Positions 23,406-25,321 of a stretch of DNA of 64,000 bases are shown in pieces. The position numbers were made by a program, and so were the translations under genes. Where the stretch lies: assembly GCA_017456605.1 (NCBI GenBank), contig JAFTJA010000004.1:248001-312000 (forward strand), given 5' to 3'. The DNA comes from Clostridia bacterium (lineage in GTDB: Bacteria > Bacillota > Clostridia > Monoglobales > Monoglobaceae). The notes below the pieces were generated by a model. That model was given only the letters and a program-made list of their open reading frames with translations, was not told where the DNA came from and did not search any database. Every line of letters starts with the position of its first letter. Positions within the stretch are counted from its first letter, which is position 1.

Positions 23406-24578
23406 ATGGATATCAAAGAACTGGCACTCAAAAAACATCATGAATGGAACGGCAAGATTGAGGTGGTATCACGCACATCGGTGAAAAGCAGCGAGGATTT
23501 GTCGGTGGCATATACCCCGGGGGTTGCAGAGCCGTGCCTTGCTATACGTGACGATATTGACAAATCATACGAGCTCACACGACGCAACAATCTTGTAGCT
23601 GTTGTGACAGACGGCTCGGCGGTTCTGGGACTTGGCGACATAGGTCCAGAAGCCGGGATGCCGGTTATGGAGGGCAAGTGTGTACTTTTTAAAGAATTTG
23701 CCGATGTTGATGCCTTTCCCCTTTGCATAAAGACTCAGGATATTGACGAAATAGTAAAAACTGTTTATAACATTTCAGGCTCTTTTGGCGGAATAAATCT
23801 TGAGGATATAGCGGCACCAAGGTGTTTTGAAATCGAAAGACGGCTCAAGGAAATCTGTGATATTCCGGTTTTCCACGATGACCAGCACGGAACGGCAATT
23901 GTTCTGGCGGCGGCACTTCTCAATGCTCTCAAGGTTGTGAAAAAGGATATAAAAAATGTTCGTATAGTGATAAACGGTGCAGGCTCGGCGGGGATTGCCA
24001 TTGCCAAGCACCTTTTGAAGCTTGGTGCAGAAAATATTGTTATGTGCGACCGCTTTGGAATAATCTGTGAGGGGCTAGATGGTCTCAATGATGCTCACAG
24101 GGAAATGAGCCTTATAACAAACCGTGAAAAAATTACAGGGACACTTTCTGACGCAATGTGCGGTGCAGACGTATTCATCGGGGTTTCGGCACCGGGGATT
24201 GTTAGTGAAGAAATGGTTTCTTCGATGGCAGAAAAGCCGATAGTATTCCCGATGGCAAATCCTGTTCCTGAAATTATGCCGGACAAAGCGCTTTCAGCGG
24301 GAGCCGAGGTTGTGGGAACAGGCCGCTCGGACTTCCCAAACCAGATAAACAACGTTTTGGCTTTCCCCGGAATTTTCAGGGGCGCACTTGACGTCAGGGC
24401 ATCGGACATAAACGACGATATGAAAATGGCGGCGTCTTATGCAATAGCAAGCCTCGTTTCAGAAGAAGAACTGACAAAGGACTACATATTGCCCAAAGCC
24501 TTTGACGAAAGAGTTGGCAAAACCGTGGCCGCAGCTGTTGCAAAGGCTGCACGGGATAGCGGCGTTGCAAGAATTTAA
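23406..24578 (+). CDS. maeA: NAD(P)-dependent malic enzyme
   Basis: The 390-residue length and motifs fit the short bacterial malic enzyme. The malic domain has [12 protein letters not shown], the catalytic tyrosine region, [18 protein letters not shown] and the metal-binding [12 protein letters not shown]. The Rossmann domain has [16 protein letters not shown], and [12 protein letters not shown] follows. It decarboxylates malate to pyruvate with reduction of NAD or NADP. GAAAGGAAG precedes the ATG at 23406. It probably shares the azlCD transcript and ends at a terminator. Cofactor choice is not read from the sequence. Confidence 0.94.
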
Positions 24579-24584
24579 AGAAAT

Positions 24585-24614
24585 AAAAGCCTGATGCAAA
24601 TGCATCAGGCTTTT
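24585..24614. terminator. bidirectional terminator after malic enzyme
   Basis: A perfect 14-bp stem, AAAAGCCTGATGCA with TGCATCAGGCTTTT, has a two-base loop. It lies between malic enzyme and the convergent small gene that ends at 24620. Confidence 0.93.
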
Positions 24615-24619
24615 GAAAT

Positions 24620-24799
24620 TTATCGGTTGTCTTTTTCGTCAGCGAGCCTCACGACTTTCTCGGATTTTTTGTTTTCTTCATCTTCGTCACCCATTGAAAG
24701 ATACATTTCTTCAACATCAATCTGGGATTTCTGCAAAAAATCGATAACATCGGTGATATCATTGAACAGTTTGTGATAGAGCTTTTTGTAATCAACCAC
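24620..24799 (-). CDS. small conserved-type clostridial protein, 59 residues, function unknown
   Basis: A GTG at 24799 opens 60 codons including a TAA at 24620-24622. AAGGGGGGGG lies about eight bases upstream. The product starts MVDYKKLYHKLFNDITDVI, continues through VEEMYLSMGDEDEENKK and ends VRLADEKDNR: amphipathic helix first, then an acidic tail. Small proteins with a DYKKLY-LFN start are familiar from clostridial genomes, but no function is assigned. It lies directly downstream of the terminator of the small RNA at 24823-24981, so it may be expressed by read-through. It ends at a terminator shared with malic enzyme. Confidence 0.75.
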   Translation of the reverse strand: MVDYKKLYHKLFNDITDVIDFLQKSQIDVEEMYLSMGDEDEENKKSEKVVRLADEKDNR

Positions 24800-24822
24800 T
24801 TTGATTCCCCCCCCTTGTAATT

Positions 24823-24857
24823 AAAAAATGCGCCAACCGAAGCTGACGCACGAAAAA
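24823..24857 (-). repeat. 35-bp identical repeat, copy 1 (terminator block of small RNA A)
   Basis: The 35 bases are identical to 25049-25083, a period of 226 bp. The block contains the UUCG-loop terminator hairpin and the CGUGCG sequence before it. Identity here contrasts with the diverged but pairing-conserved stems upstream. Confidence 0.9.
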
Positions 24858-24981
24858 TGCACAACTCCTGTTGTTGGCACACAACTTTTTAATTTCAATA
24901 CCAGCGTAAAGAAACAGAGCGTACATTTTTACCAAAGGTAAAATTACACCAGTATTGAAAAAATTATTAAGTTATGTGCCG
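24823..24981 (-). ncRNA. structured small RNA, copy A
   Basis: On the minus strand a transcript of about 159 nt runs from a promoter at 24987-25015 to a terminator. A 12-bp closing stem pairs GGCACATAACTT (24980-24969) with AAGTTGTGTGCC (24887-24876), one pair being U-G. Inside it GTATTGAAA-complementary arms pair (24952-24960 with 24893-24901), and an apical hairpin TTTTACC/GGTAAAA (24927-24943) caps the rod. The terminator is a 9-bp stem with a UUCG loop followed by six U residues. No convincing reading frame is shared with copy B. It matches no RNA family I can name; 6S RNA was considered and rejected. Confidence 0.7.
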
Positions 24982-24986
24982 ATTTT

Positions 24987-25015
24987 AGTATACCACAAGC
25001 AAAAGGAAATTACAA
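24987..25015 (-). promoter_or_regulatory. promoter of small RNA copy A
   Basis: On the minus strand TTGTAA (25015-25010), a 17-base spacer and TATACT (24992-24987). The -35 box and most of the spacer repeat the copy B promoter almost base for base. Confidence 0.75.
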
Positions 25016-25048
25016 TACTTTTTATGTGGCAAATTTGCGCATTAAATC

Positions 25049-25083
25049 AAAAAATGCGCCAACCGAAGCTGACGCACGAAAAA
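25049..25083 (-). repeat. 35-bp identical repeat, copy 2 (terminator block of small RNA B)
   Basis: This is the second copy of the block at 24823-24857. The minus-strand stem TGCGTCAGC/GTTGGCGCA (two wobble pairs) with a TTCG loop is followed by six T residues. Confidence 0.9.
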
Positions 25084-25212
25084 CGCAGCTTGGTTGATTG
25101 CGAATCAAATAAAATACTACTACAAAAAGTGAGTACTAAAAAAGCGTGCGTTTTTGCCAAAGCAAAACTCACCAATTATAGTAGTACCAAATGTATTAAA
25201 TTTGATTCGCAC
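25049..25212 (-). ncRNA. structured small RNA, copy B
   Basis: This copy has the same layout as copy A with different bases in the stems. The closing stem TGCGAATCAAAT (25211-25200) pairs perfectly with ATTTGATTCGCA (25110-25099). Inner pairs are TACTACTA/TAGTAGTA (25186-25179 with 25122-25115) and GTGAGT/ACTCAC (25172-25167 with 25134-25129), and the apical hairpin is TTTTGC/GCAAAA (25152-25167). The terminator hairpin and U tract are identical to copy A. Stem sequences changed while pairing was kept, which argues for selection on RNA structure. Confidence 0.7.
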
Positions 25213-25216
25213 TATT

Positions 25217-25245
25217 ATGATATCACAAACAAAAGAAAATTACAA
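25217..25245 (-). promoter_or_regulatory. promoter of small RNA copy B
   Basis: On the minus strand TTGTAA (25245-25240), a 17-base spacer and TATCAT (25222-25217), with transcription predicted to begin near 25212, at the closing stem. Confidence 0.7.
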
Positions 25246-25269: not shown

Positions 25270-25321
25270 TTGACAGAGAGGGTATATGAATATATAATAA
25301 TTTGAGAATTACTCTCAAATT
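25270..25321 (+). promoter_or_regulatory. promoter and palindromic Zur-type operator of the zinc operon
   Basis: TTGACA (25270-25275), a 17-base spacer and TATAAT (25293-25298) are both perfect. Immediately downstream, AATTTGAGA (25299-25307) and TCTCAAATT (25313-25321) form a perfect 9-bp inverted repeat around five bases. The architecture fits a Fur-family operator covering the transcription start. Confidence 0.85.

Follow-up and report, generated by a model that had tools for sequence, protein, structure and literature searches.

A high-copy family of structured RNAs in Clostridia, probably acting as cis-acting transcription attenuators of diverse accessory genes

Most known aptamers possess rich conserved unpaired cores. 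T-box leaders (RF00230) reach high copy numbers per genome in Firmicutes, where they serve as terminator/antiterminator leaders of many target genes. Transcription-terminating riboswitches, consisting of an aptamer and a terminator/antiterminator expression platform, are among the subjects of a review (PMC10907184). Another described arrangement is that of the RCd22/abiF RNA (RF03085), in which a promoter of its own, a structured RNA of 100-130 nt and a terminator are followed by a gene that is occasionally reached by read-through (PMC12373285).

The window, which is the whole stretch of 64,000 nucleotides analysed, contains two structured RNA units on the minus strand, unit B and unit A, that resemble these systems in part. 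With terminating riboswitches they share a predicted 5' leader position, a terminator right before the Shine-Dalgarno (SD) sequence, a competing antiterminator, a pseudoknot as putative control element and tandem arrangements. In contrast to terminating riboswitches, up to 27 copies per genome precede unrelated genes, the promoter is fixed in the cassette, and no compact, highly conserved unpaired core is evident; the few conserved unpaired residues are an AAUA element after the closing stem P1 and a CRRCAA linker. T-box leaders are similar in their high copy number, their terminator/antiterminator organisation and their many targets. However, the T-box core AGGGTGG was found in 0 of 167 copies, Rfam gave no T-box hit, a specifier domain is missing and the targets are not amino-acid genes. 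The succession of promoter, structured RNA, terminator and gene is shared with RCd22/abiF, whereas here the genes behind vary by copy, the abiF motif is absent and a pseudoknot/antiterminator switch is predicted. 6S RNA (RF00013) has a similar length and a long interrupted hairpin; the RNAs described here differ from it by their pseudoknot, leader position and many copies, and the genome's only 6S RNA lies elsewhere (G000:C6:4926-5118, locus L001), scoring 65.4 bits, above the cut-off. Leader-peptide attenuation was likewise rejected, as candidate short SD-bearing ORFs occur in 10 of 167 copies versus 17 in shuffles.

The sequence-only reading of this DNA had recognised no family for the two units, and the covariance-model search against Rfam 15 agrees, with 0 matches at the gathering score across the whole window; in 20 relatives, searched up to E 1, no hit to the RNA reached a gathering score either. 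The best match below the threshold, to MIR7807 (E 0.1), is taken as chance since this is a eukaryotic microRNA family. In openly licensed papers no description of this RNA was found, an unnamed entry in the supplementary motif lists of a survey being possible. If the RNAs were divergent representatives of 6S RNA, of the T-box leaders or of an established riboswitch class, this would explain the long interrupted hairpin, as in 6S RNA, and the terminator/antiterminator logic, as in T-box leaders and many riboswitches. In view of the separate 6S RNA, the missing T-box core and the Rfam result, this assignment is considered extremely unlikely. By mechanism, the RNAs belong among the terminator/antiterminator leaders; by sequence and structure, they are a family of their own.

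Layout of unit B and unit A

The two minus-strand units repeat with the 226-bp period given by the sequence-only reading, measured between terminators, and with 231 bp between stem starts. A TTGTAA-N17-TATNNT promoter is present in both, and the 12-bp closing stems, apical hairpins and identical UUCG-loop terminators all lie where that reading had placed them. It had not included the pairing of the apical strand PK1 with the strand PK2 (pseudoknot), the pairing of PK2 with the terminator 5' arm T5 (antiterminator) or the 59-codon gene behind unit A. The following features make up the locus, in the order of transcription:

25217-25245, minus strand: unit B promoter, with the -35 element TTGTAA at 25240-25245, a 17-nt spacer and the extended -10 element TATCAT at 25217-25222
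25049-25211, minus strand: unit B RNA, about 163 nt, first in the tandem, from the closing stem through the U-run (covariance model R2: 108.5 bits, E 2.9e-20)
25200-25211 and 25099-25110, minus strand: P1 of B, 12 bp, 5' strand TGCGAATCAAAT and 3' strand ATTTGATTCGCA (P1 covariation in the family, z -35)
25142-25155, minus strand: PK1 of B, apical strand AAAAACGCACGCTT, the 5' end of which can alternatively pair with the P3 5' strand TTTTGC at 25162-25167
25079-25091, minus strand: PK2 of B, strand AAGCTGCGTTTTT, pairing with PK1 at -13.3 kcal/mol (pseudoknot) or with T5 at -10.6 kcal/mol (antiterminator)
25049-25076, minus strand: terminator of B, with T5 at 25068-25076, UUCG at 25064-25067, T3 at 25055-25063 and the U-run at 25049-25054
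24987-25015, minus strand: unit A promoter, with the -35 element TTGTAA at 25010-25015, N17 and the -10 element TATACT at 24987-24992
24823-24980, minus strand: unit A RNA, about 158 nt, second in the tandem, predicted leader of the 59-codon gene (R2: 130.8 bits, E 4.5e-25)
24969-24980 and 24876-24887, minus strand: P1 of A, 12 bp, 5' strand GGCACATAACTT and 3' strand AAGTTGTGTGCC
24916-24930, minus strand: PK1 of A, apical strand AAAAATGTACGCTCT, the 5' end of which can alternatively pair with the P3 5' strand TTTTACC at 24937-24943
24853-24869, minus strand: PK2 of A, strand AGGAGTTGTGCATTTTT, pairing with PK1 at -14.4 kcal/mol or with T5 at -13.1 kcal/mol
24823-24850, minus strand: terminator of A, with T5 at 24842-24850, UUCG at 24838-24841, T3 at 24829-24837 and the U-run at 24823-24828
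24620-24799, minus strand: 59-codon gene behind A, with a GTG start and a G-rich SD sequence at 24807-24814
24588-24614, no strand assigned: inverted repeat flanked by A/T runs, located between the 59-codon gene and a convergent malic-enzyme-like gene

In both units the gap between the -10 element and P1 measures 5-6 nt. The folding energies of B (-59.1 kcal/mol versus -32.0 +/- 3.6 for shuffled sequences; z -7.6) and A (-58.9 versus -31.8 +/- 3.5 kcal/mol; z -7.9) both lie about 27 kcal/mol below those of shuffled sequences, and 0 of 200 shuffles were as good in either case. The nested minimum free energy fold of unit B contains the PK2:T5 antiterminator in place of the terminator. The earlier claim of selection on RNA structure is supported, and the stems covary strongly across homologues.

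On one side, the two units are flanked by a FUR-family/zinc-transport operon that runs divergently on the plus strand from 25340 onward, and on the other by the convergent malic-enzyme-like gene, which ends at 24578. The inverted repeat at 24588-24614 is probably a bidirectional terminator shared by this gene and the unit formed by B, A and the 59-codon gene. A palindrome, ATTTGAGAATTACTCTCAAAT, is located at 25300-25320 before the FUR-family gene and the zinc transporter genes, adjoining the unit B promoter on the opposite strand. It looks like an operator of the FUR-family regulator.

Distribution and alternative helices of the family

A DNA search with the A-B pair gave matches in 9 of 9 genomes of the genus. 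Covariance model R1, built from five copies, detected 14 copies in this genome, 3-12 in congeners, and was positive in 60 of 148 genomes of relatives; two nearly complete relatives carry 23-27 copies each. Model R2, built from 68 copies, was used to scan the class and found at least 99 of 391 sampled genomes and 56 of 222 genera positive; since only a few candidates in each genome were scored, both counts are minimum values. An insensitive scan of the phylum, in which 7 candidates were scored for each genome, yielded nothing beyond the own genome, and the class scan is the better measure of the distribution. The units had previously been described as a tandem pair; they are indeed arranged in tandem in the window, with B before A, and tandem copies are common across the family, but the pair is not a lone one, given the other copies in this genome and hundreds in relatives. 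The spread is patchy: of 13 genomes belonging to the order but to its other families, 0 were positive, yet many other families of the class are represented. The named carrier records are nearly all metagenome-assembled Clostridia, Oscillospiraceae and Ruminococcaceae of the ruminant gut, and include one type-strain genome, that of the cultured carrier Agathobaculum desmolans ATCC 43058. Partial blastn matches were also observed in two unannotated human-faecal 'Bacteriophage sp.' records (MT835845.1:2124-2231 and MT835503.1:493-532), which may stem from genuine phages or from contaminating chromosomal DNA.

The high copy number, the patchy distribution and the tandem and inverted partial copies would also be expected of a cassette that is mobile or selfish, either MITE-like or a mobile promoter, and that has spread through the Clostridia and landed before genes. 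However, the copies within one genome are highly diverged and still keep compensatory pairing, and the spacing between their 3' boundary and the start codon is constant, as is unexpected under random insertion. An exact-pattern search of IMG/VR and a plasmid search gave no match, the latter being a weak negative owing to its hand-written, consensus-like query, and an unsystematic search saw neither transposase nor target duplication. Overall, a mobile cassette is very unlikely to be the explanation.

The helices were examined on covariance-model alignments, as a full-length MAFFT alignment misplaced the closing stem due to the variable P2 region of differing length. PK1 (consensus AAAAAYGYAnGCUC), located at the apex, is complementary to PK2 (GAGYnRUGCRUUUUU), the strand directly 3' of the closing stem. 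This complementarity is present in every unit of the first set that has the canonical apical motif, and RNAalifold, applied to a sequence-only alignment, chose PK1/PK2 unprompted as a consensus helix. PK2 is also complementary to T5. Alignment A6 was made with a covariance model from which both the pseudoknot and the antiterminator helix were absent; in it, 88% of the cells are paired for the pseudoknot, with 74 double-change cells versus 25 +/- 5 in shuffles. For the antiterminator PK2:T5, under a model without that helix, 80% of the cells are paired and 66 double-change cells compare with 36 +/- 5 in shuffles. The control pair PK1:T3 shows 34 double-change cells versus 29 +/- 4.5. In four loci (L011, L014, L022 and L024) P2 is longer by 40-70 nt, and PK1/PK2 are still perfectly complementary over 14-15 bp.

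In a swap test, the duplex energy of each native pair was compared with that of swapped partners in 119 non-redundant copies that had not been selected by pattern. The resulting z values, calculated without a tree and thus descriptive rather than probabilities, with sequence relatedness only partly controlled, are -35 for P1, -15 for P3:PK1, -17 for PK1:PK2, -15 for PK2:T5 and -28 for T5:T3. PK2:T5 reaches -10 kcal/mol or better in 106 of the 119 copies. PK1:T3, which involves the same kinds of strands and lies outside the model, has a z of 0.2, and this null control argues against relatedness or composition as the cause of the signals. The antiterminator signal could be inflated by similarity forced through PK2, which pairs with both PK1 and T5, but the same control speaks against this. 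PK1:T3 itself was rejected as a second antiterminator on the basis of this z and of pair counts near those of shuffles.

The 3' side of P3 includes part of PK1, which results in a chain of alternatives: the P3 5' strand with PK1, PK1 with PK2, PK2 with T5, and T5 with T3. Because these pairings are exclusive, they allow two compatible combinations, P3 plus antiterminator and pseudoknot plus terminator. Rough duplex sums, before pseudoknot loop penalties, amount to -24 kcal/mol for the former and -31 kcal/mol for the latter. Such values would force neither state, in line with a switch.

Position before genes and the genes behind

An ORF of at least 30 codons with an SD sequence and a start no more than 60 nt from the terminator follows 148 of the 233 distinct copies. 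The distance is 14-30 nt in 128 of these, and in unit A the start codon lies 23 nt past the end of the U-run. In these copies the terminator is thus situated between the promoter and a same-strand start codon. On the 5' side, the same criterion is satisfied in only 3 of 233 copies, and in random windows of the same loci in 8%. While subset A5 was collected by the exact PK1/PK2 pattern, the unbiased sets A4 (28 copies with an ORF, control 0) and A6 (56, control 2) agree on the leader position. Promoter hexamers with at least 9 of 12 matches precede 135 of 164 non-redundant copies versus 22% of shuffles, and 136 of the 164 have a gap of 5-6 nt between the end of the -10 element and P1. The promoter is a fixed part of the cassette.

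The sequence-only reading had proposed divergent paralogous regulatory RNAs. Their structure and the selection on pairing stand, but the RNAs are probably 5' leaders and not free-standing; the latter is improbable because in most copies the terminator lies 14-30 nt before a same-strand start codon. Even so, roughly a third of the copies lack a gene behind them, so the terminated RNA may also serve some function in its own right.

The protein encoded behind unit A belongs to a family with the consensus [MV]xDYKKLYxKLFNxITDxIExLxKxQ, a length of about 46-65 amino acids and an acidic tail. It matches no Pfam, NCBIfam or PHROG family, and its predicted structure comprises two helices (residues 4-35 and 39-57; mean pLDDT 84). 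All five homologues found in this genome are encoded directly behind an RNA copy. Proteins of this type were observed behind the RNA in the window and at loci L013, L019, L025, L188, L190, L191 and L228-L230.

The 148 downstream proteins form 61 clusters. The largest contains 38 proteins, most of them secreted (BspA-type leucine-rich repeats, DUF6273, CHAP), followed by 19 relatives of the 59-codon protein, 11 small MazE/AbrB-like regulators and 10 small cysteine-rich proteins. The remaining genes encode lipoproteins, zinc-ribbon membrane proteins, helix-turn-helix regulators and AMP-binding enzymes. Among the 61 clusters no common pathway or metabolic theme was found, and none names a ligand. 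The genes downstream of riboswitches that read global signals, such as c-di-GMP, likewise have no shared pathway. Two groups of small proteins recur. Eleven MazE/AbrB-like regulators with C-terminal cysteine pairs are located in relatives of the same family (L170, L196, L197, L200, L215-L217, L219, L226, L243 and L244). Cysteine-rich proteins of the type IIDVTGIxLTPGNxGKDCLGNG...CCCDECNYL are found at L058, L115, L141, L155, L169, L174, L238 and L241; one of them was tested against Pfam and had no match.

A small protein that recurs behind the RNA, together with the order of promoter, RNA, terminator and gene as in RCd22-abiF (PMC12373285), could also indicate a type III toxin-antitoxin or AbiF-like pair, in which an RNA antitoxin and a leaky terminator precede a toxin gene. 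Yet the downstream genes are mutually unrelated, a single conserved toxin gene is missing, and the AbiF motif (RF03085) has no match in the window or in 20 relatives. Hardly any probability is therefore assigned to such a pair.

In 53 of 167 non-redundant copies, no recognisable gene follows the RNA. These copies keep the antiterminator complementarity (z -7.7), and regulation of a following gene is therefore not the whole story. Some of the loci look like decayed genes. A second terminator within 150 nt is present in 18 of the 53, versus 3 of 104 copies with a gene. Some gene-less copies also contain an inverted segment of the P1 3' strand, linker and PK2, located 20-60 nt past the terminator, with an RNA pairing potential of -22 to -40 kcal/mol. 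As the mean excess over swapped partners is modest (z -2.8), this segment is regarded as a feature of a subset. Within the first 80 nt past the RNA, an inverted segment followed by a second terminator was observed, for example, at L057, L036, L032, L020, L172, L006, L198, L187 and L038. As a lead, gene-less copies with the inverted segment may be noncoding or antisense members acting in trans.

More generally, the terminated RNA of about 160 nt could be the actual product, a free-standing small RNA acting in trans on other RNAs or proteins, with the following gene being incidental. This would fit the finding that in nearly every copy both the promoter and the terminator are strong, the gene-less copies with their excess of second terminators, and the inverted P1 3'/PK2 segment in many of them. 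Furthermore, PK1 and PK2 are so alike across copies that swapped partners still pair at -12 kcal/mol, making pairing between copies possible. However, the placement of 128 copies 14-30 nt before an SD-bearing start codon, versus 3 of 233 on the 5' side, is not explained in this way, and PK2:T5 covaries even though a constitutively terminated RNA would not need it. A trans-acting small RNA as the general explanation is thus unlikely.

Proposed switch and its significance

The interpretation preferred here, and held with fair confidence, is that A and B belong to a family of transcription attenuators, high in copy number and hitherto undescribed, that act in cis and control diverse accessory genes. 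The computational analysis establishes the family, four helices with covariation, and a defined spacing to the gene and to the promoter. At the level of sequence, covariation supports the helices, their exclusivity and their position. The terminator between promoter and start codon and the conserved, mutually exclusive antiterminator pairing are both features of an attenuator, and the RNAs probably decide whether transcription proceeds into the next gene.

In each cassette, a promoter of the sigma-A type would be followed by a structured leader, about 160 nt in length, and by an intrinsic terminator just before the Shine-Dalgarno sequence of the next gene. It is suggested that P1, P2 and P3 form early in transcription. 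In the proposed ON state, P3 would hold PK1, leaving PK2 free to pair with T5 as antiterminator, so that RNA polymerase continues into the gene. In the alternative OFF state, PK1 would be released and pair with PK2 in the pseudoknot, the terminator would form and only a short RNA would be produced. In the window, B and A would act as two switches in series before the small gene at 24799-24620. We infer that termination truly responds to this switch. In order of likelihood, the candidate triggers are a small molecule or second messenger that the P1-P2 region would sense, an RNA-binding protein, and a ligand-free kinetic switch.

A broader reading is tentative and, taken as a whole, rather doubtful. 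It proposes, for gut Clostridia, a global network built on one undescribed RNA switch class that, with ten to nearly thirty promoter-leader cassettes per genome, would connect a common cellular signal to accessory genes, namely those for surface leucine-rich-repeat proteins, small acidic proteins, cysteine-rich proteins and AbrB-like regulators, while the gene-less copies with an inverted PK2 would act as antisense RNAs in trans.

If the attenuator interpretation is true, the RNAs are a class missing from Rfam that would rank among the more abundant ones, counted per genome, of the cis-regulatory RNAs of uncultured gut Clostridia. They would also illustrate how sequence alone can reveal a two-state switch, through four helices that covary and exclude one another. 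Dozens of genes of unknown function would then be tied into one regulon per species, raising the testable question of which signal is read via a common RNA switch to turn on surface and small proteins. Provided that the switch role holds, the attenuator family would constitute a large regulatory network.
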